Below are positions 7,796 through 25,395 of a stretch of DNA of 26,885 nt, piece after piece. The number at the start of each line of letters is the position of its first letter. Positions within the stretch are counted from its first letter, which is position 1. The stretch is from a virus. The translations under genes and the position numbers were made by a program. A model generated the notes under the pieces. The model did no database searches. It worked only from the letters and a program-made list of their open reading frames with translations, and had not been told where the DNA came from. The stretch spans positions 1 through 26,885 of IMG/VR virus record IMGVR_UViG_3300010334_000219. One strand, 5' to 3'.

Positions 7796-7808
7796 TAAAT
7801 ATTTGACT

Positions 7809-8246
7809 ATGACATATAAATCCTTAGAAATTACCAACGCTTCAACTGTCCAAAAACAGCCTGTTAAAACCAGCCAGTTCTACAAAGGGTTTTCTAGTGT
7901 TGATATAGCAAACACTGCTAACAAATTATATGACATAGATATAATTAGACAGGATCTAATTAATCAATTCAAAACTAAAAAAGGTGAGCGATTAATGAAT
8001 CCAACTTTTGGTACCATCATCTGGGATGTGCTGATGGAGCCAATGACTGACGAAATTTATGATTTATTGTCTGAAGATATCACAGCGATTTGTAACAGTG
8101 ACCCTAGGGTGGTTCCAACCCAAATAAATTTAAACGAGTTTGAAGGTGGATACTTAATTGAAGTGTCTATCCAACTGGTGGGCACGGATCAATCTGCAAA
8201 CTTAAGATTGGCATTCAATCAAGAATCTGGGTTGATCATACAATAA
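7809..8246 (+). CDS. 25: gp25-like baseplate wedge protein
   Basis: 145 aa, close to T4 gp25 (132 aa). Key matches: FYKGFSSVDI (residues 24-33), LYDIDIIRQDLINQFKTKKG (40-59) and RLMNPTFGTIIWDVLMEP (61-78), then DPRV near 98-101. The gp25 family, shared with type VI secretion TssE, carries a conserved Glu-Pro core that appears here as MEP. The protein sits at the inner wedge and links gp6 to the first sheath ring, so it helps trigger sheath contraction. The ATG at 7809 is preferred over an in-frame TTG at 7803. It follows the spike gene by 13 bases and precedes gene 6, the same 25-6 order as in T4. Confidence 0.93.
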   Translation: MTYKSLEITNASTVQKQPVKTSQFYKGFSSVDIANTANKLYDIDIIRQDLINQFKTKKGERLMNPTFGTIIWDVLMEPMTDEIYDLLSEDITAICNSDPRVVPTQINLNEFEGGYLIEVSIQLVGTDQSANLRLAFNQESGLIIQ

Positions 8247-8283: not shown

Positions 8284-8298
8284 ATGAAAATACCATGA
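8284..8298 (+). other. Possible four-codon leader ORF overlapping the gene 6 start
   Basis: ATGAAAATACCATGA reads M-K-I-P-stop, and its TGA overlaps the gene 6 ATG as ATGA. The only Shine-Dalgarno-like AAGG (8274-8277) is 6 bases from this leader ATG but 17 from the gene 6 ATG. Gene 6 may therefore be translated by termination and reinitiation. Transcripts starting at the late promoter near 8280 would lack the AAGG, so only read-through mRNA from upstream would use it. This is inference from spacing alone. Confidence 0.3.
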
Positions 8299-11200
8299 CT
8301 ATACCAGCCACCAATTCAAAATTACTTGTTGCCGAAGATTGGAAAAAAATATACCAATCTTTTCAGAATACGGAATTTCAAAGCTACGATTTTGATACAA
8401 TCCGACGAATTCTAATTTCCTATCTTCAAGACAATTATCCAGAAGATTTTAACGATTTTATTGACAGTAGCGAATATGTTGCACTTGTTGAATTAATTGC
8501 GTACTTGGGGCAAAATTTAAGTTTTCGAATTGATTTAAATGCTCGAGAAAATTTTTTAGAAACTGCACAACGTCGAGATAGTATTTTGAGATTGGCACAG
8601 CTAGTTAGTTATGTTCCAAAAAGAAATTCTGCATCTAGTGGGCTTTTAAAAATATCAGCAGTGTCAACAACGGCAAATGTTTTTGATCAAGCAGGCAATA
8701 ATTTATCAGGGAACACTATTGTTTGGAATGACATTACTAACATCAATTGGTATACTCAATTTATCAGTATTTTGAACGATGCAATGCCAGGTAGTATGTC
8801 TTTTGGTAAACCAAACGACTATGATATTATTAATGGAAAACAAACTGAGCAATACGTAATTAACACAAATAACTCTGATGTCCCTGTATATTCATTCACT
8901 CAAAATATTAATGGAGTTGAGATGGTTTTTGAAATTGTGTCTTCAACATTTTCAAATCAAAATTACATATATGAAGATAGTCCTAAACCAGAAAATCCTT
9001 TTAACATCATATATCAAAATGATAACCAGGGATCAAGCAGTGCAAATACTGGATTCTTTACACTTTTCAAACAGGGTACACTGGCACTAAGCGATTTTGA
9101 ATTAAACAATTCAGTTCCAAATGAAATTGTGGGAGTTAATGTTGAAAATATTAACAATAATGACGTTTGGTTATGGCAGTTAGACGCAAACGGAAGATAT
9201 TCTGAGCTATGGCAACAGATACCGTCAATCAGTGGCAATAACATTATCTATAATAGTGTACAAAAATCTTTTAGGAATGTGTACAGCGTTACCACAAGAG
9301 ATCGAGACCAAATTGATTTAAATTTTTCAGATGGAGTTTTTGGCAATTTGCCATTTGGACGTTTTCAACTTTTTTATCGTCAAAGCAACGGTCTTGCGTA
9401 TAATATAACTCCAGATCAGATGTCAGGTATAAGTCTAACTATTCCTTATGTAGATAAATCAGGAGTTAATCAAAATTTAACATTAATTTTAAATTTAGAA
9501 TACACAGTAAATAATAGTGCTCCATCTGAAAGCAATCTTTCAATACAGCGTAAGGCTCCCCAAGCGTTTTACACTCAGAATAGGATGATCACTGCTGAGG
9601 ATTATAATATTGCACCTCTAACTTATACTTCAAACGTTTTAAAAATTAAAAGTATTAACAGGGTAAGCAGTGGTATTAGCAAGTACTTTGAACTTAGTGA
9701 TGTCAGTGGTAAGTACGGAAAAACTAATATTTTTTGTGATGATGGCATGATTGCAAAAAATGTCACAAATTCAGTATTTTCCTTTAGCTTCAATAACCAA
9801 AATGACATATGGTCATCAATTAAAAATTACCTATTGCCTGCAATATCTAAATTAGAGCTAAATTCCTTTTACATAGACACATATAGAAAATATAAACCTG
9901 TTAGTGTGAGTGTTGATGATAAATTCACTTGGGTGTCAGTCAATGTCATTACTGGTCAAAGTCGTGGGTATTTTCAGGGCCCAGTTTTTAACATAAACAA
10001 TGACTATCAGTTAATTCCCTTCGCTGTTAATCAGCGTCCAGCGAATTCCAGCAATCCTTTATATTATATAACTCCTGGAGCTTTGATAAAGTTCCAAGCT
10101 CCAAATGATATTGTTGGAAGACCCCAATATTTTTTACCTGATGGAACCCTTACTATAACCGAAAGTTTTAATACTTCAGAATACTGGTGGTCCACCGTTC
10201 AAAAAGTAATTGGCACAGGTAACAACAATGGCCTTGGAGCATTAGATGACGGCACAGGCCCTATTATTCTATCTAATGCAATACCTAATCGATGTGCCGT
10301 TGTTGAAATTGTTCCGGCGTTTTCTAATACTTTGGATTACGGGATTCAGTCAACTATAGTTGATTTATGTCTAAGTTATCAAACTTTTGGTCTTAGATTC
10401 GATTCCCTATATCGACAGTGGGAAATAATTTACAACGGAAATCTAAATAAAGTTAACGATTTAACTGATCAAGGTTTGTCTAACATGTTCTTATATGAAG
10501 GAGACAACACCAATGCTAATAGAGACTCAAGTTGGCTAATATTGTTTGATTTATCTGGAGAAAAGAAATACTCAGTTACTGATAAATTAACTCAATATAT
10601 TTTTAAGAGTGAATCTCAAACAGGATTTTATTTGGGAAATTCTAATGTTAATTTTGATTACACTAACAACACAGTGGTCAAAGATAAAATTACTGTGCTG
10701 TCTATCAACTCCCGAGCCGACAATAATTCCAAACCGCTTAATATAGATTATGTTTGGCAGGTAACTGGTTCTATTGTTGAATCTGACGGATATATAGACC
10801 CGTCAATAATTTTAATTGGATTTTATACTGGAAACTTGCCAGGAAATTTGATAAATGCCACAGTGAATCCAGATGCGTTTGATACTATTATAGGTGAAGG
10901 AAATAATTCAATTTTAATAAATGGTAAATCCTATACTGGAAGATCAGGATTAAAGTTTCATTATGAGCGTAATCCCTCTGATGATGTTCGAGTTGACCCA
11001 GCCAAAAGTAACATAATTGACATTTATATGTTGACTGCAAGTTATAATTATGAATTTAGAAATTGGTTAACAACGGAAAACGGTATGATGCCATTGCCAC
11101 CAACAACTCAGTCTTTAGAAAGTAATTATAGTTCAGATTTGGAACCTATCAAAGCAATTAGTGATCAAATAGTATTTCAGCCAGGCTTGTATAAAATTTT

Positions 11201-11558
11201 ATTTGGAAATTATGCAGATCCAGCCCTGCAAGCAACATTCAAAGCAGTTAAAAGCGAGTACAGTACATTAAGCGATAATGCAATTAAATCTAAAATTTTA
11301 GAAGGTATAAATCAGTTTTTTGATTTGGAAAATTGGGATTTTGGGCAGTCTTTTTATTTTAGTGAACTATCTACCTACATAATGAATTTATTATCGCCAA
11401 ATATTACTAATTTTTTACTAGTGCCAGTATCTACGAGTTTTGGAAATTTATATGAAATATCATGTCAATCAAATGAAATTTTTATCAGTGGTGCTACTGC
11501 TGAAAACATTCAAATAATTTCAGCTGTTACCACACCTCAGTTGACCAACGGAAAATAA
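8295..11558 (+). CDS. 6: gp6-like baseplate wedge protein (baseplate J family)
   Basis: 1087 aa, against 660 aa for T4 gp6. The N-terminus has the marine T4-like gp6 signature: SKLLVAEDWKKIYQSFQNTE, then ELIAYLGQNLSFRIDLNARE and NFLETAQRRDSILRLAQLVS. A J-domain-like part follows at about 405-440 (SAPSESNLSIQRKAPQ, then QNRMITAEDYN from residue 428). The C-terminus reads INQFFDLENWDFGQSFYFSE and ends with NEIFISGATAENIQII, also typical of gp6. Middle residues of about 450-950 are beta-rich added sequence. gp6 dimers join neighbouring wedges into the ring that encircles the hub. The start at 8295 leaves a poor ribosome site, perhaps compensated by the leader ORF at 8284-8298. The giant gene begins 3 bases after the stop. 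Confidence 0.92.
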   Translation: MTIPATNSKLLVAEDWKKIYQSFQNTEFQSYDFDTIRRILISYLQDNYPEDFNDFIDSSEYVALVELIAYLGQNLSFRIDLNARENFLETAQRRDSILRLAQLVSYVPKRNSASSGLLKISAVSTTANVFDQAGNNLSGNTIVWNDITNINWYTQFISILNDAMPGSMSFGKPNDYDIINGKQTEQYVINTNNSDVPVYSFTQNINGVEMVFEIVSSTFSNQNYIYEDSPKPENPFNIIYQNDNQGSSSANTGFFTLFKQGTLALSDFELNNSVPNEIVGVNVENINNNDVWLWQLDANGRYSELWQQIPSISGNNIIYNSVQKSFRNVYSVTTRDRDQIDLNFSDGVFGNLPFGRFQLFYRQSNGLAYNITPDQMSGISLTIPYVDKSGVNQNLTLILNLEYTVNNSAPSESNLSIQRKAPQAFYTQNRMITAEDYNIAPLTYTSNVLKIKSINRVSSGISKYFELSDVSGKYGKTNIFCDDGMIAKNVTNSVFSFSFNNQNDIWSSIKNYLLPAISKLELNSFYIDTYRKYKPVSVSVDDKFTWVSVNVITGQSRGYFQGPVFNINNDYQLIPFAVNQRPANSSNPLYYITPGALIKFQAPNDIVGRPQYFLPDGTLTITESFNTSEYWWSTVQKVIGTGNNNGLGALDDGTGPIILSNAIPNRCAVVEIVPAFSNTLDYGIQSTIVDLCLSYQTFGLRFDSLYRQWEIIYNGNLNKVNDLTDQGLSNMFLYEGDNTNANRDSSWLILFDLSGEKKYSVTDKLTQYIFKSESQTGFYLGNSNVNFDYTNNTVVKDKITVLSINSRADNNSKPLNIDYVWQVTGSIVESDGYIDPSIILIGFYTGNLPGNLINATVNPDAFDTIIGEGNNSILINGKSYTGRSGLKFHYERNPSDDVRVDPAKSNIIDIYMLTASYNYEFRNWLTTENGMMPLPPTTQSLESNYSSDLEPIKAISDQIVFQPGLYKILFGNYADPALQATFKAVKSEYSTLSDNAIKSKILEGINQFFDLENWDFGQSFYFSELSTYIMNLLSPNITNFLLVPVSTSFGNLYEISCQSNEIFISGATAENIQIISAVTTPQLTNGK

Positions 11559-11561
11559 TAA

Positions 11562-14500
11562 ATGACAACGGCAACAATACAATCAGTTAATCTTTTACCA
11601 ATATATTTTCAAACTGACAAAAATTCTAAATTTTTGTCTAACACCATTGATCAGTTAATTCAGCCAACTCAATTAGAACGGCTAAATTCGTTTGTTGGAT
11701 CAACTTCAACACCCACATATAAATTGAGTGATTTTTATGTACGTGAATCTGAGCCTTTAAGACAGGCATATCAGTTAGATCCAGCTTTGGTAGTTTACGA
11801 TATTGAAGAGACTGTGCAGTCATTGGTAACTATTAACGATTTATCTAACGAAATAAAAATTAGGGGAGGGTATTCTGATAATTTTGATAGACTATATGGA
11901 GCTGATGTATATCCCTACTACCCTCATATTGATTTAGACAAATTCATCAATTACCAAAATTATTTTTGGTCTCCAGATGGCTCGTTTTTAATCACCATTG
12001 GCGAAGATTTTCTTGATGTTGATAATTTAATTTTAGGGCTCGAATCTGCATCAGTTCAAGTCAACGGGCAGTCAGTTTCGTTATTAAATGGCATGCTAGT
12101 GACCTTTACTGGCAAGGGAGTTGACCCTAAATATCAGTATAAAGAATTTTATGTAGAGGGAGTGGGCACCTCAATAACGCTTGTTGATACAAATAAATTA
12201 ATCGTTCCTGAAAAAATTACAGAATTGGTCAATGATCAATATGACAGTCAAGGTTATGATTTTTTAGGTTACGATAGTGACACTAGATATCCAAAAATTC
12301 CAGAGTATGTTACTATTAATAGGGCCAGTTTAGACGGCAATCCTTGGTCAAGATATAATCGTTGGGTTAGTCTTGATGTAATAAAAGCTAGTTCGCTATT
12401 AAATAATTCAGAATTAATTACTCCAATTTCTAATAGAGCCAACAGGCCAATTATTGAATTTAACAAAAATTTAAAACTCTATAATTTTGGTTCTACTGCA
12501 ATTGAGCCAGTTGATTTACTAGATCGTGTTGTAGAAGATGCATTTAGTGTTTTCCGGATCATAGAAGGAGCTGTACTACCATCTGCATCTACGGCAACAA
12601 CTGGCATCTTTATTGATGGGGTTAGGGTAGAATACGGGAATCGTGTGATTTTTACTGCTGATAAAAATCCGTTAATTAAAGATAAAGTATTCATTATCAC
12701 ATTTGTTGATTTAGGTGACACCAACGAACCTGCGGTTGCACTATATCCAGCACTTGATGTTCCTTTGGCGGAAGGATTGTCAGTTGTGGTTAAAAAAGGA
12801 AAGATGAATGGTGGCTCAAGTTTTTGGTTTAACGGGAATGACTGGATACGTGCGCAGCAGCATACTCAATTAAATGAAGCGCCGTTGTTTGACCTTTTTG
12901 ACTCCAACGGCATTAGTTATTCAAATTTAAATTATTATCTTTCTAATCTTTCTGGAAATAAAGTGTTTGGATACGAAATTGATCCTATTAATCCACCAGA
13001 CAAAATTTTAGGATTAAATTTAGCATATTTAAATGGCAACCTTACTTCAAGTATTTTATTTAAAAATTATTTCAGTAATGGAACTATAAATTTAATTAAT
13101 AACTTTGGTGGTAATTCTATTATTAGGACTGATCAAACTTTTTTAAAAATAGATGATCAACTTGTTAATATTTGGCAAGGATCTATCAAGCCAAAGATTG
13201 CAGTTAATACTAGTACTGGATATTATGATTTGCCACTAAGCCTTTCAAATAATCCATTAAATGCCAGTTTAGATTCTTTTACATTGGGTGATTTATCAAA
13301 TCAAAAGTATAACACTGGTACTCAATTAATTATAAATTCTAATCCTATTAGTTTTGCCATGATGTTTATTGGTAAAAAAGAACATAGTGTTATTAATGCA
13401 ATAATTAACCAATCTCAGAGATATAATTATTTTAAAGAATCGTTAATTAATTACCTTTCGTTAACTAGCTTCACTAATAACCCAGCAGAAGCTCTTGATG
13501 AAATTTTGCTAAAGATTAATGAAGGAACACCATCGGAAAGTTCTTTTTATCTATCAGACATGGTGGGCCATGGTCAAAATAAAACTGTATTATTTCATAA
13601 AGTTGCATTTGTTGAAACTGAGACTTATTTAATACCAGAAGAATTTTCTTTAAAATCAATATCTAACAAAAGTACATTAGTTTATATTAACGGTCTGCAA
13701 TTAACATACGGCATTGATTATGAGTTTGATTCAATTGATCCTTATGTTTATTTTTTAAAATCATTAAAAATTGGTGATGATATTAAAATTGTTTTTTATA
13801 ATGATACTAAAAAAAGTTTTATACCGCCAACTCCTACGAAATTAGGTCTATATCCTTCATTCATTCCTAAAATTTATTTAGATAATACTTATGCGACACC
13901 TGTGAATGTTATTCAAGGTCATGATGGTAGTATAATTGCAGCTTTTAACGATTACCGAGACGCAATTTTATTAGAATATGAACTACGAGTTTTTAATAAT
14001 CTAAAGGTATCTTATCAATCAGATTTATTTGATATACACAAAGTTGATCCGGGATTTTGGCGAGATAAAAATGGGATCAGTAATTATTCTTTTTCTGAAA
14101 TTACTGCTATTTTACAAAAAGATTTTATCAAATGGGCAACTGATTATGGTATTGATTATACTGCTAATAATACTTTTGACTTAACAAAACCGTTCACTTG
14201 GAATTATGTTTCGAATATAGATTCGGTCAAAGGATCTGTCAGATCGTTATTTAAATATTATTACGACACTGACAGGCCACATACACATCCTTGGGAAATG
14301 TTGGGATTTAGTATAAAACCTGTATGGTGGGATTCAAAGTACGGTCCGTTACCATACACAGCTGGCAACCGAATAATGTGGGAAGATTTATCAGCAGGTA
14401 GGATCTTAGTTACAGATACTGGACCAATTATTAATGAATTTTATGCTAGACCAGGATTAATGGATCTAATCCCAGTTGACAACGAAGGTGCTCTGTTAAA

Positions 14501-17500
14501 CCCAGCAGTTATTGGTTTGGCAATTAATACCAATCAATATTCAATGGATCGAAGCTGGGCTGTTGGTGACCACGGACCTGCCGAAACTGCATGGAGAAGA
14601 AGCAGTTATTGGCCGTTTACAATTCAAAAATTATTAGCACTAACTTGTCCTGCATCGTATTGCTCTTTGATGTATGACCCGGCAAATATGAAAAAAAATA
14701 TTTTAGGTCAATGGGTTTACGGTAAAAATGAAGTATTTTTAAATTTAAAACAAATTCCAATTCACGGTGAAAATGATTTGCCAAATGACAGTGGCTACAG
14801 TGTCATTATAAGTGAAATTGGTAAAAAACGTGATTTTGATTATATATCAAAACTCAAAAGCGATTTAAATTATTGTAATTTTAATCTAGTATACAAAGTT
14901 GGCGGATTCGTAGGCAAAAACACTTTGCAGATTTTTATTGATGCGTACGAACCTAGTACCAATTCTCCAGAATCTTTATTGCCAGATGATGACTATATGC
15001 TAACTGTCAATGTTAGCAACCCAATTAAAAGTGCTAGTATTTCTGGGATAATTATTCAAAGAGTTTCCAAAAATTTTGTTGTTAGAGGATATGATCAAGA
15101 TTTTCCGTATTTTACATACCATCCCCCAATCAAGGCCAACTCGTCATCATTGAATACTGTGGGCGGAACTGCCAGTGAATTTGTTGATTGGTCGTCATCT
15201 ATATCTGATCCTTTATCTACTACCTATTATCAAAAAGGACAAGTCGTCAAGTACGGCAGCAAGTATTATCGAACTCTAGTTTCCCATCAGTCAGGTGAAA
15301 CTTTTGATACAACACTATTTTCAAAGTTATCATCTCTGCCTATATCAGGTGGGGTCACTGTTCAATCAGTTTCAAATTTTGATAAAAGACCTGTGCAAGT
15401 ACCCTATGGTACTACTTTTACGAAAATTCAGGATGTTTATGACTTGATTGTAGGGTATGGCGATTGGTTAGTTTCTCAAGGGTTTTACTTTAACCAATTC
15501 AATATTGATCTACAATGTACGGTAGATTGGAATTTAAGTGCAAACGAGTTTTTATACTGGACTACTCAAAATTGGATAGATAACAGTATTATATCAATCA
15601 GCCCATTTGCAGATCAAATTTCATACTATACCAACAATTCAGTAGTTGATAATATTTTTAATGATTTTTATGGGTATAATTTTTTCAAATCAGACGGAAC
15701 TTCTTTTGACAAATCAAATCTGTTTATCACAAGAAGTGACAACAATTTTATTGCCAAAACTATCAACACCGATGATGGTATATATTTTGCAAAGTTAAAT
15801 TCTATACAAAAAGAACATGCTATAGTTTTTAAAAACACTACTATCTTTGGGGATATTGTATATGATATCCAGACAGGTGAGCGACAACAGAGAGTAAAAT
15901 TAGTTGGTTTTAGAACTGCTAATTGGAATGGCGGGTTGACATCTCCTGGCTTTATAAATGATTCTATAAAGATAAAGGACTGGGAGCCAAATCAGCCCTA
16001 TCTTGCCAGCAGCATTGTTAGATATAATAATTTTTATTATAGCGCTTTTAAAAATATCAACAGCGAATCTAGTTTTGATTTTGTTAAGTGGAAAAAACTT
16101 GAAAAAAAGCCAAACTCCAAATTATTTCCAAATTTTGATTATAAAATAAGTCAATTTAATGATTTTTACAGTCTGGACATTGATAACTTTGACGTAGCAC
16201 AAAAACAATCTGCTCAAAGTTTAGTAGGATACGGTCCTAGATCATATCTTGAAAATATTATTTCCAATCCCATATCTCAATACAAATTTTATCAAGGATT
16301 TATCAAAGAAAAAGGTACTGCGAACACTATTGCCAAGTTGGTCAATAAGCAAGATTTTAATAATGAAATAAGATTTTATGAAACTTGGGCTCTGCGGGTG
16401 GGGCAGTATGGCAGTTTTACTTCGTCTCAAGAATTTGAATTTCCGCTAATTGAGGGAACTTTTCTTGAGAACCCTCAAATTGTAACATTTACAGAACCAA
16501 AATCTACTCGTGATTACTCGCCAGTTTATTATATTAATCCGTTGAATTTTACAATTTACCCAAGTTTGGGAGCAATTCCTAATATAAAAGCCACAACGTC
16601 AACAAATATATTCCAACTTATGAATGCTGGTTATGTTCGAATCGATGATGTTGATGCAACAGCATATAATTTGAACAGTTTACTGGATGTCGCAAACAAC
16701 CGTGAGTTACTGGAAGGAAACACTATTTGGTTAGGATTCAAACCAAATGGAGATTGGGACGTACTAAGATACTCATTGTTCTCTTCTGATATTATAGCTG
16801 TGGATTTAGACGAAATCTATAATAGTGTGACTGTTACCACATCTCTGCCAAATAAATTATCCAAAGGGCAAGTTATATCTATTGTTGGTGTTAGCAATTC
16901 AATTGACGGGGTTTATGTCATTGAATCAAAGACGTCTCCAACACAATTTACTGTGATCAACAACGACGCATTTGTAAATGATCAAGATTTAAACTTTCCT
17001 GGTTTTGTTTTTATCTTTGAATCAATGAGATTTGGAAATTTTGATCTTATCTCAACTGACGAAAAATTATACAACTATGATATTGGTACTTATTTTTGGA
17101 TTGATTCTGGAAACAATACCAACAACAACGGATGGGAAGTATATAAAAAAGTTTTAAATTATCAAAGTTCTAAGTTAGTTGGGCGACACTCTGCGTTATC
17201 TCAGGGCTTTGGATATCATATAAGCACAAGGAATAATAGTAATATTCTTGTAGCTGGGGCACCAATTTATTCGGCGCCAGGAAAATCAGGTGCATTTTTT
17301 CTTTATGATAATAAAAAAACAAAATTAAGTGAAATTTCGTTTTTTTCAATGGATAATACCGCTGGTAATAATAACAAATTAGGATACGCGGTATTTTATG
17401 ATGACCGTATTTTTCCTAACTCAAATTTTGGATTGGTGTTTGCAGGAGCTCCTGGAGCATACAATAATAGCGGAACGGTGTTAATTTTTAGTATTAACGA

Positions 17501-20500
17501 AATTTACGATGCTAGACAGCAAGGCCAGTTAACAAATCCAAACAGTAACTCAACAGGAACATTTGGGGCCAGTATCTTTGTTCAACGAAATACTGGAACA
17601 AAACAGGTATTAATTGGGGCTCCTAAAACAAACCAGGTATACTCCTATGTGATTACCTCTACGAATGCAGCAAATCTGCTAATAAGTCAGCCAATTTTGA
17701 CAACGTCAAGTGTAGCTTTGTCAACTGATGCACAGTGGGGTTATTCAATTGTTGGATCAGATAATGCAAAATATATAGCAATCAGTGCACCTTATAATGA
17801 CAAAAAAAATGTTAACTCTATAGTTGCTAATAGTAGTACATCAGTTTTTGATAATATTGGCACGGTGTCTGTGATATATAATTCAACTGTGACACAAACT
17901 ATATACAGTCCGTTTGGTGATAATGGAAATTTTGGATTATCAATGGCCATGAGTCAAGATGGATCATACCTAGCAGTTGCCGCACCAAATACTCTAAATA
18001 ATAATAATAGTTATGGCGCAGTAGCAGTCTATAACACAGGAACTAATGGAAGGTATACACTAACTCAAATTTTGTATAATCTTGTTCCCAACAGTAAGAT
18101 GTATTTTGGCATGTCACTGAGCATTAACTCTTTGTCAAATGCTTTGGTAGTATCTGCTCTAGGCACGAATACTACTGTGATTACCACTTTTGATACTTTT
18201 ACTACTTTTGATTTTGATGTAACACGATTTACTGAAACACAAGATTATTCGGGCACTGTGTATCTGTATAATCGAAAAAAATCAAGATTTGTATTCAGCC
18301 AGGAAATTATTGATAGTTCTGAATCAGTAAACACTTTAACCAACTTTGGCAATTCTATTGCCGTTAGTGATGATTTAATATTTGTGGGATCACCGTCCAC
18401 TTTGAATCAAACCACTGGTAGCATTTTTACATTTTCTAAAATTGATCAAACTATTGACGGACTGGAACGGGTTCGAGTTCAAGAAGATCTAATAACTCCT
18501 AGTTCAATTAATCAGATACGACTAATCGATACAAAATTAGAAAAAATTATAAATTACTATGATTTTGTTGATCCTATCAAAGGAAAGATTTTGGGAATAG
18601 CTGATGAAGAATTGACGTACAAGGAATCCAGCGACCCGGCAGTATATAGCATAGGTAGAGAAGGAGTCACTGTTAATGCGAACCTCAGTTGGATTGACCA
18701 ACAAGTAGGGCAGTTATGGTGGGATTTAAGTAACACAAAGTTTATTTGGTATGAACAAGGGGAAATAGAATATCGTAGAAATAATTGGGGAAAATTATTT
18801 CCAGGAGCAAGTATTGACATATATGAGTGGGTGGGGTCTGATCTTCTACCAAGTGATTGGAGTGCTCTAGCAGACACTCAGGAAGGGTTGGCAAGAGGAA
18901 TCAGCGGACAGCCTAAATATGTTGACAATAGTACACTGGCGGTCAAACAGATATACGACAACATAACAGGAACTTTTGGTAATGTGTACTATTATTGGGT
19001 AAAAAATAAAATAACTGTGCCCAATGTTAAAAATCGAAATACAAGTGCATTCTCTGTGGCTAGGTACATAGCCAATCCTACAGAAGCAGGAATACAATAC
19101 GCCGCATTCATTTCAACAAGTTCTTTGATGTTGGCCAATTTTTCCGCAAAATTTCGATCAAATGAAATAAGTTTAAATTTTACAATCGATAACACTAATA
19201 ATAAAGTACAAAAGCATGTTGAGTGGCAATTAGTAAATGAGGGAGTTACGCAAGATCAAATACCATCATTGTTGGAAACTAAAATGATTGATAGTTTGAT
19301 TGGATATGACAGTGAGGGTAATTTAGTACCTGATCCTAAATTGTCTGATAGATTAAAATATGGAATTGGAATACGCCCTCGACAGACTTTGTTTAAAAAT
19401 AGATTAACGGCGTTGCGTAATATTGTTGAATTTGCTAATGGAATACTGCTCAATACCCAAGTTGTTGGTAACTATAATTTTTCAAATTTAAATGCAGAAG
19501 AATCATTACCAATACCAACAACGTCATCTTGGGTGGTGGTTGAGGAAGTACTGGACTTAGATAACATTGACACTTCAGTTGTGAATAAGGCGTCAGTAAT
19601 TTCAGATTCGTACCAAAATGGCAATTGGTCGGTGTACCAGTTTGATGGAATAAAATGGGATGTGGTTCAAACTCAAAGTTATAATACCAAATTATATTGG
19701 GAATATGTTGATTGGGTAAGTCCTGAATTTAATATCTATAAAACAATATCTCATATTATTAACGATCCTTATCAATTGGGGGCCATAACTTCAACATTTG
19801 GTCAGTATATAAAAATTAATAATAGAGGCGATGGAAGATTTGTGATAGTTACTCCATCAAAATTGGGAGATTTTGGAACTTTTGGTAATAATTATGATAT
19901 CCTCTTTATTCAAAATGGAACTATACAAATTAAAGATATTTTATGGAGTTACATTTACGGATGGGATAGCAATAATGCGTTTAGTCAAGGGTTGTTTGAT
20001 CAAACCCCAAATAAGGAAATATCTTATATTTTATCTGCTTTAAAGAACGATTTATTCATAAACGATTTATCAAAAAATTGGAATTCTTTATTTTTCAAAG
20101 CAGTTAAATTTGCGCTATCTGAACAGAAGTTCGTGGATTGGGCGTTTAAAACTTCTTTTATTGACGTAATCAACTATTCAGGAACATTGACACAAACTTC
20201 AGTCTATAAGTTACAGGATGACACATATTACGAAAAGTATATAAATGAAGTCAAACCATATCACACTCAGGTAAAAAGGTTTACTGCCTCCTTTGACAGT
20301 ATTGATATTTCTGACACAACAGTTACAGATTTTGACTATTCACTGGCTTATGATTCAGTCAGCAATCAATTTGTTTCAAATCCAATTCCAATTGAAAATT
20401 TTAATTTTCCTGAAATTTATAACTCAAGTACAGGAGTAGTCATCACAGAGTTTCTCCCACTTACAACAAAATTTGTAAATGTTCCTTGGAGAGAACTAAC

Positions 20501-23500
20501 TAATAAAATCTTATTTGATAGGATAACCACTCAAGATCAAATTGGAAATTTAACAGTGGTTGATCATTTTAATGGAGCTGTTAATAATTCCTTTTTTGAG
20601 TTAAGTTGGGTAGCCGACACAGATAAATCTAAAATTTTTGTATCCATTGATGGCATACCAGTATATTCTTCAGGGTTTGAAGTTCTATACGATAGTAAGC
20701 CTTACATGGGATATACCAAGCAGTACAGTTATTTAAAATTATTACCTAATTCAGTGCCGTCAATTGTATCAGATAATACTACGACGTTTACATTATCAGT
20801 AACTTATCAAAAAAATCCAATTTTGATGTCAGCATCTGAACGAATTTATAATTTATATAATCCCACACCTGATATGTTAAAAAAGGATATAACACAGCTG
20901 ATGTCCGGGGCGGTTGATCCACGAAAAGTGATTGGCGGCCAATACGAAGGCACTGGGTTTGGAAATGTTAATTCTGGTATGGTATTAGACAGCATGATAA
21001 ATCCTGGAATTTCTAGGACTATCACAGTGCCCAATACGGTTACTGGCATTGACAATATTACGGAATTTTATGGAATAAATGGTGTTGTAATAACTGGTAC
21101 TAATGCAAGTACAATTACCATCAATGTTTCATCGTCAACTGTGACTATTGTTGATATAGATGATAATGCAATCACTGGTCAATATACTTCATCAAACGGA
21201 CTTCGGTGGAATTTTTCTAAAGAAAGAACTATAGTTTATCCGTCTACAGGATATCCCACATGGATTAATAGTGGCCTATCTGGAAGAGTTGGTGGATTGG
21301 GCATTAATCCTAATGATGTTATTATTGATGGATCTGTTAATTTTATACCTACACAACCTAATCAAGCTCCTGAGGAGTTGGTGCCAGGCGCGGTTGGCGA
21401 TTCATTAGCGGTCAATGTTTATACAAAATCTGCATATCAATCCCCTACAATTTTTAATTCTAGTAAAAATATAACTAAATCAACCTTAACGTCTGTGATA
21501 GAGTTATCAATAATGCCGCCAACAACTTCAAGCATTGTGGTAACTTTTAATAACAGGGTGCTTAGTTATGTCAGCACACTGACTAATTTAGAAAATTTTC
21601 CGTCATTTAGTATTGATTGGTCTGCAAATCAATTAATATTGCCACCACAAACAGCTTCAGGAATTTTAAGTTATTTAATTTTAGGCGTGGGTGATTCGAA
21701 TCCAGTTGGGTTAGGTATGGTTGATTCTCAAAGCGTCACCGTTGATATTCAATTTACAACCAGCACTGGCAAACTAATAACTATGGTAAATTATCGTGAT
21801 GTGGGCAGTGCATATGTCACAGTTGACGGAACTCCAATTGATAATATTTCATATCCTATTGTCAGTGGTAACCCGGTGTTTTATTCAATCAATACTGCAA
21901 GTAATAGAGATAGCAGAGCTGTAGTTAATGTACGTAATTTGACAACTGGTACTCATTTAATACAAGCATGGATTTTCAACTCTACAAGTTCGCAGTTTAA
22001 CAAGATAGTTGAACAAAATTATTACGTGGGTGATACCCCTGTGTTTGTAAACGATGCATCTGGATTTGCTACTGGGATACAATTAACAAGGAACCCGATG
22101 ATTTTTGGCCCCATGTCGGAAACAATTGTTGAAATAATTCCTGATGATGGGCCTAGGGTAAGACTACGACCTCCACATTTTAATTATTATAAAGTAACAA
22201 ATACTAACATTTTTGAAGTTGGATATCCAATTGTTGCATCTACATCTTCATTTGTAGTTGACACAGTTCAAGGTAAAAATATTCGAGTTTATTTGGATGG
22301 TCGACAATTGGCGTACGGCAGCAATAAAGATTTAGATTATTATATTGAGAACAATCTAGTCTATATAGCTACTCGACCTATTGTGTTTGGTACGGAACCT
22401 AAAATTGGTAGTATAATAGCTATCGAAACCTTTTACTATAATGAAATCAGTAATTCAACGTCAATTACTGACGGTTCGGTGGAGTATGATTACGATTACT
22501 TAATTACAGGCGAACAAGCAATTGGATATACTCTGTTATTAACACCAAATTACAGTTCCATAACAAGTTCTACAGTAAGAATACTCACATTTCATATCCA
22601 AGATAGTCTAGGTGTTATATCAAAAAAGTTTTTAGGAAACCCTTCACGAACTTATACATTAGACTATCCTGTGTTGAATTCAAATTATTTGTGGGTGCAA
22701 GTCAGTTCTACTTCTACTGGCCTACTATCATTGACAAACGGGCTTGATTATCAGGTATTAGAAGACAATTTGACTGTGTTAATTGGTGATAATATTAATG
22801 CAACGCCAGCAGACACTGTGTTTATAAAGAGTTTTGCTGATCCAAACAAATCAGAAAAAACATTGGGATATCGAATCACCAAAGATTTTTTAGGTAAGAC
22901 TTCGTTTACTAGATTATCAAATGATGACTCCACATATCTAACTCAACCTTTAGAGGCAGGTGATGAACAAATTCATATAGCTGACGGCAGTATTCTAAGT
23001 CCTGCTGATGACAACAAAAACGTTCCTGGCGTGGTATTGATAGCTGGTGAAAGAATTGAATTTTTTAACAATATTGATAATGTGCTATCTAATTTACGTC
23101 GAGCAACTGGTGGAACTAGTCAAGCTGAGTATTTGGAAATTGGCACTTTGGTTATGGACCAGGGAAAAAATCAAATTATAAATGAGTTTCCCGCAACGCC
23201 ATATTCGGATGTTGTGTTAATTCAGAATACTTATACTAGTTCTGTGTTAGAAAACACATATACTATTAGTACAACTACTATTTCTACTTGGATTAATCCA
23301 GTTACTTCATCTACTGTAAGATGTGATGGTATTACCCTAACGACTGCAACGGCACCATTGCCTTTTGATCCGTACACTGGTAAAGTGACATATAAGGGAA
23401 GGATTTATCCTATATCAACGTCTAGCATAAATGCAAAAGATCAAATTGAAGTCTATTACGGCGGGTACCTATTACGCAAAGATCAATCTTTTTATCATGA

Positions 23501-23972
23501 TACCACAATATCCTATGATGGTATATCCATTGACCAAATCAAAGGTGAAGTCGCATCCGCTAATGATTTAGCCACAAAAACACCGTATTTGGGGGATGCC
23601 TATATTTGCCAAGATACTAATCAAGTTTGGGTATCAACAATAAATCAATATAATTTATACGGTGTTCCTTCTTATGTATACTCTGGATTAAAGCGAATTC
23701 CTCCAGATTTTACTATAACCACAGCTACACAACGATTGATTTTAAACACGGCTACGGTTAGTATTCAAACAGGCACGTTGTTGACTGTGGTTAAGAAACA
23801 GGTGGGGTCATCATGGAACGATATTGTATCAATCAACACTTCCAAATCATTACTAGTGAGTACTGGCACAATTGCTCAATTCTTAAATTCAGGATTAGCG
23901 CTGTTACCTGCAAAATATTTTTATGAGTCGCCCCCGCCTATAGTTGGATCTAGTGATCAAACGTTGACATAA
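11562..23972 (+). CDS. Giant baseplate-wedge-position structural protein (4136 aa)
   Basis: 4136 aa, in the position of T4 gene 7 (gp7 is 1032 aa) right after gene 6. Residues 1-150 have motifs seen in large structural proteins of marine T4-like phages: IDQLIQPTQLERL, the YQLDPALVVYD stretch, and YYPHIDLDKFINYQNYFW. Further landmarks are two carbohydrate-binding-like segments (1222-1256, 1473-1513), a seven-repeat FG-GAP-like propeller (about 1874-2293), EVKPYHT (from 2896), APEELVPG (from 3269) and a GERIEFF motif (from 3829). Short fibre-like beta modules of the VYxxGxxL...DY type recur near 704, 3573, 3707 and 3961. No signal peptide or membrane segment is evident. It is probably the outer wedge scaffold with fused receptor- or fibre-binding parts, possibly replacing several separate T4 wedge proteins. 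The reading frame is open throughout and codon use looks even, so a single gene is likely. The specific equivalence to gp7 is inferred from order. Confidence 0.75.
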   Translation: MTTATIQSVNLLPIYFQTDKNSKFLSNTIDQLIQPTQLERLNSFVGSTSTPTYKLSDFYVRESEPLRQAYQLDPALVVYDIEETVQSLVTINDLSNEIKIRGGYSDNFDRLYGADVYPYYPHIDLDKFINYQNYFWSPDGSFLITIGEDFLDVDNLILGLESASVQVNGQSVSLLNGMLVTFTGKGVDPKYQYKEFYVEGVGTSITLVDTNKLIVPEKITELVNDQYDSQGYDFLGYDSDTRYPKIPEYVTINRASLDGNPWSRYNRWVSLDVIKASSLLNNSELITPISNRANRPIIEFNKNLKLYNFGSTAIEPVDLLDRVVEDAFSVFRIIEGAVLPSASTATTGIFIDGVRVEYGNRVIFTADKNPLIKDKVFIITFVDLGDTNEPAVALYPALDVPLAEGLSVVVKKGKMNGGSSFWFNGNDWIRAQQHTQLNEAPLFDLFDSNGISYSNLNYYLSNLSGNKVFGYEIDPINPPDKILGLNLAYLNGNLTSSILFKNYFSNGTINLINNFGGNSIIRTDQTFLKIDDQLVNIWQGSIKPKIAVNTSTGYYDLPLSLSNNPLNASLDSFTLGDLSNQKYNTGTQLIINSNPISFAMMFIGKKEHSVINAIINQSQRYNYFKESLINYLSLTSFTNNPAEALDEILLKINEGTPSESSFYLSDMVGHGQNKTVLFHKVAFVETETYLIPEEFSLKSISNKSTLVYINGLQLTYGIDYEFDSIDPYVYFLKSLKIGDDIKIVFYNDTKKSFIPPTPTKLGLYPSFIPKIYLDNTYATPVNVIQGHDGSIIAAFNDYRDAILLEYELRVFNNLKVSYQSDLFDIHKVDPGFWRDKNGISNYSFSEITAILQKDFIKWATDYGIDYTANNTFDLTKPFTWNYVSNIDSVKGSVRSLFKYYYDTDRPHTHPWEMLGFSIKPVWWDSKYGPLPYTAGNRIMWEDLSAGRILVTDTGPIINEFYARPGLMDLIPVDNEGALLNPAVIGLAINTNQYSMDRSWAVGDHGPAETAWRRSSYWPFTIQKLLALTCPASYCSLMYDPANMKKNILGQWVYGKNEVFLNLKQIPIHGENDLPNDSGYSVIISEIGKKRDFDYISKLKSDLNYCNFNLVYKVGGFVGKNTLQIFIDAYEPSTNSPESLLPDDDYMLTVNVSNPIKSASISGIIIQRVSKNFVVRGYDQDFPYFTYHPPIKANSSSLNTVGGTASEFVDWSSSISDPLSTTYYQKGQVVKYGSKYYRTLVSHQSGETFDTTLFSKLSSLPISGGVTVQSVSNFDKRPVQVPYGTTFTKIQDVYDLIVGYGDWLVSQGFYFNQFNIDLQCTVDWNLSANEFLYWTTQNWIDNSIISISPFADQISYYTNNSVVDNIFNDFYGYNFFKSDGTSFDKSNLFITRSDNNFIAKTINTDDGIYFAKLNSIQKEHAIVFKNTTIFGDIVYDIQTGERQQRVKLVGFRTANWNGGLTSPGFINDSIKIKDWEPNQPYLASSIVRYNNFYYSAFKNINSESSFDFVKWKKLEKKPNSKLFPNFDYKISQFNDFYSLDIDNFDVAQKQSAQSLVGYGPRSYLENIISNPISQYKFYQGFIKEKGTANTIAKLVNKQDFNNEIRFYETWALRVGQYGSFTSSQEFEFPLIEGTFLENPQIVTFTEPKSTRDYSPVYYINPLNFTIYPSLGAIPNIKATTSTNIFQLMNAGYVRIDDVDATAYNLNSLLDVANNRELLEGNTIWLGFKPNGDWDVLRYSLFSSDIIAVDLDEIYNSVTVTTSLPNKLSKGQVISIVGVSNSIDGVYVIESKTSPTQFTVINNDAFVNDQDLNFPGFVFIFESMRFGNFDLISTDEKLYNYDIGTYFWIDSGNNTNNNGWEVYKKVLNYQSSKLVGRHSALSQGFGYHISTRNNSNILVAGAPIYSAPGKSGAFFLYDNKKTKLSEISFFSMDNTAGNNNKLGYAVFYDDRIFPNSNFGLVFAGAPGAYNNSGTVLIFSINEIYDARQQGQLTNPNSNSTGTFGASIFVQRNTGTKQVLIGAPKTNQVYSYVITSTNAANLLISQPILTTSSVALSTDAQWGYSIVGSDNAKYIAISAPYNDKKNVNSIVANSSTSVFDNIGTVSVIYNSTVTQTIYSPFGDNGNFGLSMAMSQDGSYLAVAAPNTLNNNNSYGAVAVYNTGTNGRYTLTQILYNLVPNSKMYFGMSLSINSLSNALVVSALGTNTTVITTFDTFTTFDFDVTRFTETQDYSGTVYLYNRKKSRFVFSQEIIDSSESVNTLTNFGNSIAVSDDLIFVGSPSTLNQTTGSIFTFSKIDQTIDGLERVRVQEDLITPSSINQIRLIDTKLEKIINYYDFVDPIKGKILGIADEELTYKESSDPAVYSIGREGVTVNANLSWIDQQVGQLWWDLSNTKFIWYEQGEIEYRRNNWGKLFPGASIDIYEWVGSDLLPSDWSALADTQEGLARGISGQPKYVDNSTLAVKQIYDNITGTFGNVYYYWVKNKITVPNVKNRNTSAFSVARYIANPTEAGIQYAAFISTSSLMLANFSAKFRSNEISLNFTIDNTNNKVQKHVEWQLVNEGVTQDQIPSLLETKMIDSLIGYDSEGNLVPDPKLSDRLKYGIGIRPRQTLFKNRLTALRNIVEFANGILLNTQVVGNYNFSNLNAEESLPIPTTSSWVVVEEVLDLDNIDTSVVNKASVISDSYQNGNWSVYQFDGIKWDVVQTQSYNTKLYWEYVDWVSPEFNIYKTISHIINDPYQLGAITSTFGQYIKINNRGDGRFVIVTPSKLGDFGTFGNNYDILFIQNGTIQIKDILWSYIYGWDSNNAFSQGLFDQTPNKEISYILSALKNDLFINDLSKNWNSLFFKAVKFALSEQKFVDWAFKTSFIDVINYSGTLTQTSVYKLQDDTYYEKYINEVKPYHTQVKRFTASFDSIDISDTTVTDFDYSLAYDSVSNQFVSNPIPIENFNFPEIYNSSTGVVITEFLPLTTKFVNVPWRELTNKILFDRITTQDQIGNLTVVDHFNGAVNNSFFELSWVADTDKSKIFVSIDGIPVYSSGFEVLYDSKPYMGYTKQYSYLKLLPNSVPSIVSDNTTTFTLSVTYQKNPILMSASERIYNLYNPTPDMLKKDITQLMSGAVDPRKVIGGQYEGTGFGNVNSGMVLDSMINPGISRTITVPNTVTGIDNITEFYGINGVVITGTNASTITINVSSSTVTIVDIDDNAITGQYTSSNGLRWNFSKERTIVYPSTGYPTWINSGLSGRVGGLGINPNDVIIDGSVNFIPTQPNQAPEELVPGAVGDSLAVNVYTKSAYQSPTIFNSSKNITKSTLTSVIELSIMPPTTSSIVVTFNNRVLSYVSTLTNLENFPSFSIDWSANQLILPPQTASGILSYLILGVGDSNPVGLGMVDSQSVTVDIQFTTSTGKLITMVNYRDVGSAYVTVDGTPIDNISYPIVSGNPVFYSINTASNRDSRAVVNVRNLTTGTHLIQAWIFNSTSSQFNKIVEQNYYVGDTPVFVNDASGFATGIQLTRNPMIFGPMSETIVEIIPDDGPRVRLRPPHFNYYKVTNTNIFEVGYPIVASTSSFVVDTVQGKNIRVYLDGRQLAYGSNKDLDYYIENNLVYIATRPIVFGTEPKIGSIIAIETFYYNEISNSTSITDGSVEYDYDYLITGEQAIGYTLLLTPNYSSITSSTVRILTFHIQDSLGVISKKFLGNPSRTYTLDYPVLNSNYLWVQVSSTSTGLLSLTNGLDYQVLEDNLTVLIGDNINATPADTVFIKSFADPNKSEKTLGYRITKDFLGKTSFTRLSNDDSTYLTQPLEAGDEQIHIADGSILSPADDNKNVPGVVLIAGERIEFFNNIDNVLSNLRRATGGTSQAEYLEIGTLVMDQGKNQIINEFPATPYSDVVLIQNTYTSSVLENTYTISTTTISTWINPVTSSTVRCDGITLTTATAPLPFDPYTGKVTYKGRIYPISTSSINAKDQIEVYYGGYLLRKDQSFYHDTTISYDGISIDQIKGEVASANDLATKTPYLGDAYICQDTNQVWVSTINQYNLYGVPSYVYSGLKRIPPDFTITTATQRLILNTATVSIQTGTLLTVVKKQVGSSWNDIVSINTSKSLLVSTGTIAQFLNSGLALLPAKYFYESPPPIVGSSDQTLT
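17181..18445 (+). repeat. Seven FG-GAP-like repeats encoding a putative beta-propeller within the giant protein
   Basis: Seven protein repeats begin with (F/L/W)G at residues 1883, 1940, 2001, 2059, 2124, 2182 and 2262 of the giant protein, 57-80 residues apart. Most run FGxSixxxxxxxxlxVGAPxxxxxxGxVxxY; examples are ILVAGAP, LVFAGAP, VLIGAP, AISAP, AVAAP and IFVGSP. Seven units of about 60 residues match a seven-bladed integrin-alpha/FG-GAP-type propeller. The DNA itself is not repetitive, so the duplication is old. The function is probably ligand or sugar binding, or a structural hub. Confidence 0.75.
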
Positions 23973-23996: not shown

Positions 23997-24617
23997 ATGA
24001 ATAACCCTAACGAATTTTGTCCAATAGCAGTGCAAGGACATGTTAAAATTTATGATCCAGTGACTAATGAAGTTTTTCGAGATCAGCCAAATGCTATCAA
24101 TTATGAAAATTTTAGTATAGCACTAGCCCAAAGCTTGTCAAATCAGGGAGTTGGGATGATTGAAGGTATGGCGTTTGGTAATGGCGGATCTCGAGTTGAC
24201 GCATCTGGCATCATTACTTACCTCACTCCCAATGTAATTGGCACCACTTCTGCACTGTATAATGAAACCTTTTACAAGGTGGTAGATTCTAGATCATCTG
24301 GAAATAATTTAAATCCAGTTAAAAATTTTATACAATATCGGCATGTTCCTGGAGCATTTTACAGTGATGTTTTAATAAGCTGCTTGTTGGATTTTGGCGA
24401 GCCCAGCGGCCAACAAGCATTTGATAATGCTGTGAACAGTGACGGGACTTATATTTTTGACGAAATTGGAATTAGAGCTTACGGGGAAGATGGTACGGGG
24501 TCAGGTTCATTATTAACCCATGTAATTTTTCACCCTACTCAAAAGTCATTGAATCGTCTTTTGCAAATTGATTATACCATTCGAATACAAAGTTTAGCTA
24601 CTGGAGGTGGGCATTAA
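23997..24617 (+). CDS. Conserved T4-like virion structural protein of unknown role
   Basis: 206 aa. I recognise the sequence type but not a proven function: GHVKIYDPVTNEVF (residues 14-27), INYENFSIALAQSL (34-47), GMAFGNGGSRVD (57-68), YRHVPGAFYSDVLISCLLDF, GEPSGQ and then FHPTQKSLNRLLQIDYTIRI near the end. Proteins with this pattern occur beside giant wedge and fibre genes in marine T4-like phages and are annotated as virion structural proteins. It has no signal peptide or membrane segment and is predicted globular and beta-rich. The ATG at 23997 has only a weak GGA upstream. The gene ends on a one-base overlap with the next start. It may be a peripheral baseplate part or a connector for the fibre-like proteins that follow. 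Confidence 0.65.
   Translation: MNNPNEFCPIAVQGHVKIYDPVTNEVFRDQPNAINYENFSIALAQSLSNQGVGMIEGMAFGNGGSRVDASGIITYLTPNVIGTTSALYNETFYKVVDSRSSGNNLNPVKNFIQYRHVPGAFYSDVLISCLLDFGEPSGQQAFDNAVNSDGTYIFDEIGIRAYGEDGTGSGSLLTHVIFHPTQKSLNRLLQIDYTIRIQSLATGGGH
24603..24608 (+). promoter_or_regulatory. Consensus ribosome binding site for the first fibre-like gene
   Basis: GGAGGT lies 8 bases before the ATG at 24617, inside the end of the preceding gene. It is the only full consensus Shine-Dalgarno site I saw at a gene start in this window; the others are partial. It suggests higher translation of the 258-aa fibre-like protein than of its neighbours, in addition to coupling through the TAATG overlap. Confidence 0.7.
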
Positions 24618-25393
24618 TGACATACGCAGTAACATACAATGACGGTAGTCCTTTACTGTTAGTGGCAGATAATACTATTGACACTTCTAGAAGTGTGACC
24701 TTTATTGGAAGAAATTTCCAAGGTTACGGATTTTATCAAAATCAAAATTTGGTTACTTTGTTAACTAATTCTGCTAGTCCTGATTATTCTAGACCATTAA
24801 ATCCTTTACAGGGACAGATATGGTATGATGCGACTAATCAACGATTAAATATTTATGATCCAAACTTTCGATCGAACGGTGGATGGAAACATGCCGGCGG
24901 AGCATCAATTGATTCTAGTCCTCCTAGTGGAGTTGCTGAGGGAGATTTCTGGTATGATGTAGAAAATCAAACTCTAAATCTGTATGCTGAAAGCGGGTAC
25001 TATTCAGTTCCTACGTATCCGCGCAATGAGCCTACTGGATGGATAACTCCAAGCACTTCCATATTTGATAATGGTACAACGCCTGTTACCCATCAAGTAA
25101 CATTCCTTCAAAATTATGGCGATGTAGTGGGAGCCCTTAGTAACTCGTCTTTTATAGCCAGCGGGTCTGATAGTACTTATAGATTTCCGTTAGCAGATAC
25201 AAATGCGTACTCTATACTACAAGGGTTAAACATTATTGGATATGTGCAAGCTACTGGTGGTTTAATTTTAAATGAAGCTCCAGCAACATCAACTTCGGCA
25301 GGAATACCTGGCCAAATTGCATATGATGTCAATTTCATCTATGTTTGCATAGCTGAAAATAACTGGAAAAGAGTTGGATTGACTGGATTTTAA
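24617..25393 (+). CDS. Fibre-like structural protein with WYD modules (paralogue 1)
   Basis: 258 aa. The N-terminal module (about 22-95) has SVTFIGRNFQGYG (26-38), LVTLLTNSASPD, then PLQGQIWYDATNQRLNIYD. A second, shorter WYD unit follows at about 109-123 (GDFWYDVENQTLNLY). The C-terminus (232-258) is GQIAYDVNFIYVCIAENN plus WKRVGL, a typical end of phage tail-fibre and collar-type proteins in which IaYD...lYvCva.n.WKR forms a small beta fold. The role is probably an attached fibre or a fibre adaptor on the baseplate rim. The N-terminal module is shared with the next gene, so the two arose by duplication. The first start overlaps the upstream stop and has a strong ribosome site; the next gene follows after 2 bases. 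Confidence 0.65.
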   Translation: MTYAVTYNDGSPLLLVADNTIDTSRSVTFIGRNFQGYGFYQNQNLVTLLTNSASPDYSRPLNPLQGQIWYDATNQRLNIYDPNFRSNGGWKHAGGASIDSSPPSGVAEGDFWYDVENQTLNLYAESGYYSVPTYPRNEPTGWITPSTSIFDNGTTPVTHQVTFLQNYGDVVGALSNSSFIASGSDSTYRFPLADTNAYSILQGLNIIGYVQATGGLILNEAPATSTSAGIPGQIAYDVNFIYVCIAENNWKRVGLTGF

Positions 25394-25395
25394 CT

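Follow-up and report, generated by a model that had tools for sequence, protein, structure and literature searches.

A predicted seven-bladed FG-GAP beta-propeller inserted in a giant gp7-position protein of uncultured jumbo phages

The virus record IMGVR_UViG_3300010334_000219, whose 26,885 bases are here called the window (the whole stretch of DNA analyzed), carries a baseplate gene cluster with an uninterrupted open reading frame (ORF) of 4136 codons. The profile phrog_10938 (virion structural protein) matches this ORF with an E value of 3e-298, and homologues of its product, the giant protein, were found in 58 phage records of the RaK2, GAP32, 121Q, Munch, PA5oct, Atu_ph07, Phosso, and SCTP-2 types. 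Within the giant protein lies a segment of seven FG-GAP repeats that is predicted to fold as a closed beta-propeller. Computation gave the repeats of this domain, its predicted fold and site of insertion, and its distribution and history; coordinates are listed in Table 1.

The seven repeat units start at residues 1883, 1940, 2001, 2059, 2124, 2182, and 2262, with spacings of 57, 61, 58, 65, 58, and 80 residues. Their presence had been proposed in the original prediction as seven FG...GAP units 57 to 80 residues apart, and it was borne out by a unit hidden Markov model (HMM) whose training set of 75 units came from the 63 members, other than the window, of an alignment of homologous segments. 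All seven units were recovered by this model at domain E values of 1e-5 to 1e-16, with zero matches in the remaining 3578 residues of the giant protein. When the 558-residue segment was shuffled, 8 of 500 shuffles yielded any domain (E value of ≤0.01), and none yielded more than two. A regular expression gave 7 matches against a mean of 0.0065 (maximum, 2) in 2000 shuffles and 0 matches elsewhere in the protein; this is weaker evidence, because the expression was fitted to the window itself. Pfam FG-GAP_2 (PF14312) reached 23.7 bits on the whole protein (curated cutoff, 23), where a single stretch passes by itself, and 34.0 bits on the segment alone; it was matched in 56 of the 64 alignment members (E value of ≤0.01). 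The repeats do lie at 17181 to 18445 (residues 1874 to 2294), where the original prediction had placed the domain, but the domain is slightly larger, at about 17151 to 18455, because the strand at residues 1867 to 1873 and the residues past the last unit belong to the modelled domain.

The alignment of 64 homologous segments (A2) was the basis of a profile and of an AlphaFold2 model. The anticipated closed, seven-bladed propeller of the integrin-alpha type agrees with the profile match to the PDB, with the predicted structure, and with its superposition on integrins. The best PDB match of the A2 profile was the integrin alpha-4 propeller, with an E value of 4.3e-16, and 45 of the 54 matches at an E value of ≤1 were integrin alpha chains; the other nine (best E value, 0.0081) clearly had no relation to the propeller, being proteins like rhinovirus VP4 or proteins with different folds. 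The model had a mean predicted local distance difference test score (pLDDT) of 83.7 and a predicted template-modelling score of 0.83, with pLDDT values below 50 at segment residues 1 to 24, 305 to 308, and 555 to 558. All 50 matches listed by Foldseek against the PDB were integrins (best E value, 1.3e-13). With VIA-align, model residues 78 to 518 (residues 1865 to 2305 of the giant protein) superposed on integrin alpha-M over 355 residues with a Z score of 33.0 and a root mean square deviation of 2.8; the ten best matches were all integrins (Z scores of 31.3 to 33.0, deviations of 2.8 to 3.0, and 346 to 355 aligned residues), followed by WD40 propellers with Z scores of up to 30.9. A search of a library of viral structures (BFVD) returned 128 matches at an E value of ≤0.001, many from giant viruses, and also matched a virion protein of cyanophage S-TIM5. 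From the order of the predicted strands, blades 1 to 6 would each consist of four consecutive strands, while blade 7 would combine three C-terminal strands with the N-terminal strand at residues 1867 to 1873 and so close the ring.

The likeness to the N-terminal propeller of integrin alpha chains (3v4p and 9t3y) thus covers the seven FG-GAP blades, the profile match, and the superposition, whereas sequence identity is 19% and the phage domain sits in the middle of a 4136-residue protein rather than N-terminally in a membrane receptor. Unlike integrin alpha, the phage propeller is not known to have a beta-subunit partner. The suggestion that calcium-binding DxDxDG loops (PF01839 type) might lie between the strands failed, for such loops were lacking in all 64 members, and calcium binding by this route was ruled out; the relaxed pattern D.[DN].[DNS]G occurred in 13 of the 64. 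The propeller therefore has a predicted integrin fold but is not classed as an integrin. An extra domain sits in a loop of certain integrins and of certain members of the phage set: the I domain in the former and a CBM_5_12-like insert in the latter.

In relatives of the giant protein, a conserved "W.VY.K" stretch lies 5' of the propeller and "W..LR.Q..LVD" or a near variant lies 3' of it. On the 353-kb contig L125, profile positions 2 to 73 and 534 to 579 are joined in frame with a gap of three bases, and a search of the whole contig with the propeller profile gave no further significant propeller match. L125 is the sole member of the propeller-bearing clade seen without the domain and represents a natural empty site on one contig; of its 80 nearest loci, 78 carry the propeller, and the remaining two are L125 and a locus truncated where its contig ends. 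On the simplest reading of the predicted strands and the L125 junction, the propeller was inserted into a beta-hairpin at its tip. Because both ends of a closed propeller adjoin, the insertion would leave the host fold undisturbed. Propeller-less clades keep a similar flanking stretch (L200, L203, and PA5oct), and their slots hold either 76 to 129 residues or 260 to 1540 residues of other sequence. The slot is a general growth point of the giant protein. The slots of 260 to 1540 residues, some with glycine-rich repeats, are those of Atu_ph07, Phosso, L192 to L199, and L207 to L263; SCTP-2 also belongs to a propeller-less clade.

To follow the domain through its relatives, we used the conserved flank B, which gave 488 matches in viral contigs. 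The data set comprised 267 viral loci and eight first proteins (275 rows), of which 218 were left after 57 with an identical flank B were dropped; RaK2 was among the duplicates, and its IMG copy, L265, stands in for it. The propeller core was present, at scores of at least 105 bits, in 172 of 211 nonidentical viral rows as well as in the window, and 39 viral rows lacked it. The ratio of 172 to 211 is not a natural frequency, because the loci were those that scored best against a small number of queries. All six isolate rows lacked the propeller, as did RaK2 through L265, so that none of the seven isolates has it; these are the seven of the 58 phage records with a giant protein in which the slot was examined.

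For the flank B tree, from which the insert was excluded, 5 of the 218 rows were dropped for a short flank and 44 of the remaining 213 by clustering at 85%, leaving 169 rows, 133 with the propeller and 36 without. The tree was a quick one, with support from the Shimodaira-Hasegawa-like approximate likelihood ratio test (SH-aLRT) only and with several long branches. Two changes suffice to explain the distribution, against a mean of 33 when presence and absence were shuffled over the tree (0 of 500 shuffles were as low as two), and the propeller-bearing rows together with L125 form one group of 134 (SH-aLRT, 99). This pattern fits one gain in the ancestor of the clade, inheritance by descent, and one loss, in L125. 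The original prediction had suggested that the propeller might be present or absent as a cassette. It is indeed present in some relatives and absent in others, but a mobile cassette was dropped as an explanation, since the tree requires just one gain and one clear loss. Base composition gave no sign of a recent foreign origin either (GC content of 34.7% in the propeller and 33.9% in the giant ORF).

Whole contigs were searched with the A2 profile, because a PF14312 search of genomes passed its cutoff in one of eight records and missed known propellers. No propeller relatives were found on plasmids, and the scan of genome contigs with flank B found no relative. The one phage record matched in the propeller search was that of Sinorhizobium phage Phosso, through a different gene (E value, 3e-4), and with the L025 segment as the query no propeller relative was found among phage records. 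The repeats were also observed in separate ORFs. Phosso gene 108 (L002, 3868 to 13101) is a separate giant ORF with 19 FG-GAP_2 stretches in 3078 residues (E value, 1.3e-174), which are probably several propellers in tandem. On the 543-kb contig G005, which belongs to L195 and encodes a giant protein with a propeller-free slot, a stand-alone 423-residue ORF at 411597 to 412742 contains seven FG-GAP_2 matches.

The original prediction had called the giant protein a wedge protein. Gene order supports this: the ORF comes right after a gp6-like gene, and as gp7 likewise follows gp6 in T4, it occupies the gp7 position. So does the detection of two relatives in virions: the database record of the relative gp355 of PA5oct notes detection by electrospray ionization tandem mass spectrometry, and the homologue CBB_236 of phage CBB (3340 residues) is listed in a virion mass spectrometry table (PMC5259590). 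Virion membership is thus taken from relatives, of which that of PA5oct has no propeller. Sequence and fold gave the label no support. T4 gp7 has 1032 residues, and its alignment with the giant protein by hhalign reached probabilities of 0.9% and 2.5%, at which homology was undetected; the Gp7 Pfam domain is absent from the Pfam matches of the giant protein. Structure comparison of residues 2601 to 2975 was uninformative (best VIA-align match, a phage tailspike over 60 residues with a Z score of 6.0), with no gp7 among the matches listed. Since no relation to T4 gp7 in sequence or fold was found, the label "wedge protein" rests on gene position. T4 gp7 may itself hold a propeller domain, but no mention of one was found in the literature searched.

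Some phage tail proteins contain propellers whose blade type differs from FG-GAP, namely, phiKZ gp131C, phi11 gp45, and PRD1 P2. These established cases are peripheral tail or receptor-binding proteins (PMC6115969), in contrast to the insert in a baseplate giant described here. Stand-alone integrin-like propellers in related phages are already known: gp213 of the Sinorhizobium jumbo phage AP-J-162, a "hemagglutinin" of 375 residues, is reported to resemble human integrin 3VI3 (PMC11242549), and the "hemagglutinin" A0A2L0UZX4 of Atu_ph07 (393 residues) was matched by our model in BFVD with an E value of 1.3e-15. Both are integrin-like, as is the domain in the window, but they are separate proteins, and in Atu_ph07 and Phosso the slot of the giant protein, unlike that of the window, lacks a propeller. 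CBB, a RaK2-like phage, encodes the beta-propeller proteins CBB_550, CBB_552, and CBB_554, of which CBB_552 was detected in virions (PMC5259590); these are of the Kelch rather than the FG-GAP type and are encoded by separate genes. Such a domain is unmentioned in the available parts of reports on RaK2 adsorption (PMC10253068), Atu_ph07 (PMC6102473), and Sf14 (PMC11821841), and the literature searched, mostly at the level of listings and exclusive of subscription journals and bioRxiv, yielded no account of an FG-GAP propeller within a giant baseplate protein. The predicted propeller at the hairpin tip of a gp7-position virion protein in RaK2/PA5oct/Atu_ph07-like jumbo phages therefore appears to be new.

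The propeller probably holds or grips something at the tail tip. In the explanation that we consider best, an FG-GAP_2 propeller would have been inserted once at the hairpin tip of the gp7-position giant protein, in the ancestor of a large clade of uncultured jumbo phages, and since passed down together with that protein. It would serve as a rigid, nonenzymatic, calcium-independent binding platform, and we infer that one copy projects from each baseplate wedge. A conserved loop in blade 6 (TFD..TTFD) would most likely dock a fiber, a spike, or an adjacent wedge protein, leaving the other, length-variable loops free to accept extra modules. We give this explanation about an even chance. Docking of a virion part is slightly favored over direct host binding, because, against the two nearest relatives, the propeller and the remainder of the protein show about equal conservation and because the blade-6 loop is strongly conserved. 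With L088, propeller identity is 59.7% against 59.7/57.2% for the rest of the giant protein, and with L010 it is 61.7% against 60.3/59.0%, with flank B higher in both (70 to 71%). The B-C loop of blade 6 is long yet conserved: in segment numbering, D430 occurs in 64 of 64 members and F423, D424, F429, and T434 each occur in at least 90%. Column conservation was used here, as regular expressions for the signature proved overly stringent (matches in 40 of 173 and in 69 of 173, the latter missing even the window).

Several observations weigh against docking. Against the more distant L011 and L016, propeller identity falls short of that of the N-terminal part (46.1 versus 57.3% with L011 and 41.8 versus 55.0% with L016), as a surface-binding module might show, and is close to that of the C-terminal part (46.8% with L011 and 45.3% with L016). 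The B-C loops, which in integrins lie on the ligand face, vary more in length than the A-B loops (mean standard deviations of 8.1 and 1.4 residues; Mann-Whitney P value of 0.013, with seven loops each). The blade-6 loop region (segment residues 421 to 440) was modelled at low confidence, with a pLDDT of about 55 to 63. A partner encoded next door was rejected, as the next three genes (g206, g258, and g410; window positions 23997 to 26628) are equally frequent with the propeller (115, 114, and 113 of 117 rows) and without it (30, 30, and 30 of 32) among rows with at least 4 kb downstream. CBM_5_12-like inserts were found in the propeller region of five of nine scanned members (E value of ≤0.01), all under the Pfam cutoff (best, 25.6 bits against 26.2), and would fit glycan binding. 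Finally, L125 exists without the propeller.

The strongest competitor is a host-binding module, copies of which at the baseplate rim would contact surface glycans or proteins as a secondary receptor contact; we regard this as a real possibility, though one short of even odds. The identity values of the distant pairs and the variable B-C loops speak for it, as do the CBM_5_12-like inserts in marine members (marine as judged from their distant branch position), the stand-alone integrin-like "hemagglutinins" of related phages (PMC11242549), and the propellers established in the receptor-binding proteins phi11 gp45 and PRD1 P2 and in the peripheral tail protein gp131C of phiKZ (PMC6115969). On the other hand, the closest pairs show no sharp drop in identity relative to the rest of the protein, the domain was gained once and retained almost universally instead of being exchanged, one loop is strongly conserved, and the CBM matches remain under the Pfam cutoff. 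A bolder and rather doubtful proposal is that the baseplate bears a ring of integrin-like heads, one per wedge, acquired once and acting as an adhesion or triggering organ throughout the clade, to which marine branches would have added carbohydrate-binding loop modules in the manner of the integrin I domain.

A structural spacer, which would make the giant wedge protein stiffer or wider without specific binding, is unlikely: the loss in L125 and the slots of other clades, with other inserts of 260 to 1540 residues or almost nothing, are consistent with it, but of the 134 lineages that the clade comprises after clustering, 133 retain the propeller, with its conserved loop. Repeats that arose by chance, or an artifact of annotation, in a low-complexity protein rich in Thr, Ser, and Asn might be suspected, as the units are short and degenerate and one alone passes the Pfam model by itself, but this is contradicted by the HMM, the shuffles, the PDB profile, the fold, and 172 homologous contigs and is extremely improbable.

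Whatever its function, the domain indicates that a giant baseplate protein can take in an entire closed domain at the end of a hairpin, for which L125 offers a natural empty site to compare, and it is a single-gain marker for a large jumbo-phage clade that has no isolate among the phages examined. If the propeller binds fibers or hosts, it would name the part that distinguishes this clade from the cultured RaK2, PA5oct, and Atu_ph07 types.

Table 1. Features of the window discussed in the text
Feature	Position	Strand	Residues of giant protein	Basis
Seven-bladed FG-GAP beta-propeller insert (predicted)	17151..18455	+	1864-2298	AlphaFold2 model, integrin superposition; edges from L125 empty site
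FG-GAP unit 1	17208..17264	+	1883-1901	Unit HMM and regular expression
FG-GAP unit 2	17379..17453	+	1940-1964	Regular expression; HMM domain 1959-1976
FG-GAP unit 3	17562..17624	+	2001-2021	Unit HMM and regular expression
FG-GAP unit 4	17736..17792	+	2059-2077	Unit HMM and regular expression
FG-GAP unit 5	17931..17987	+	2124-2142	Unit HMM and regular expression
FG-GAP unit 6	18105..18161	+	2182-2200	Unit HMM and regular expression
FG-GAP unit 7	18345..18395	+	2262-2278	Unit HMM, regular expression, Pfam FG-GAP_2
Closing (outer) strand of blade 7, probable	17160..17180	+	1867-1873	Predicted strand; closure from strand order
Blade-6 B-C loop with conserved TFD..TTFD	18156..18227	+	2199-2222	Lowest loop entropy
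Host hairpin strand before insert (EVYKK)	17136..17150	+	1859-1863	Predicted strand; conserved "W.VY.K" flank; abuts next flank in L125
Host hairpin strand after insert (LERVRV)	18462..18479	+	2301-2306	Predicted strand; conserved "W..LR.Q..LVD" flank
Conserved flank A	16245..16922	+	1562-1787	HMM anchor
Conserved flank B	18501..19421	+	2314-2620	Basis of tree
Giant gp7-position virion protein, propeller host	11562..23972	+	4136 in all	Uninterrupted frame; phrog_10938 match; homologues in 58 phage records
gp6-like baseplate wedge gene	8295..11558	+		phrog_10646 and phrog_219 (baseplate wedge subunit); immediately 5' of giant ORF
gp25-like baseplate wedge gene	7803..8246	+		phrog_43 and phrog_261 (baseplate wedge subunit)
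Protein with hub/spike-like domains	5387-7795			Part of baseplate cluster

Upstream in the cluster, the gene at 7803 to 8246 is one that we take to be gp25 by name, and the wedge gene at 1880 to 2179 is presumably of the gp53 type. No tRNA genes were found in the window. Outside the propeller, the giant protein has a CBM_5_12 match below the cutoff (E value, 0.0036) at residues 1220 to 1244 (about 15219 to 15293), and in one Pseudomonas phage record the homologous giant gene is annotated as chitin-binding type 3. The members with CBM_5_12-like inserts in the propeller region are L181, L172, L175, L144, and L135; in L181, the insert follows the GAP end of a unit. Downstream of the giant ORF, the neighboring ORFs at 24617 to 25393 and 25396 to 26628 have similar N termini (VTFIGRNFQGYG in one), occur both with and without the propeller, and are probably paralogous tail proteins.

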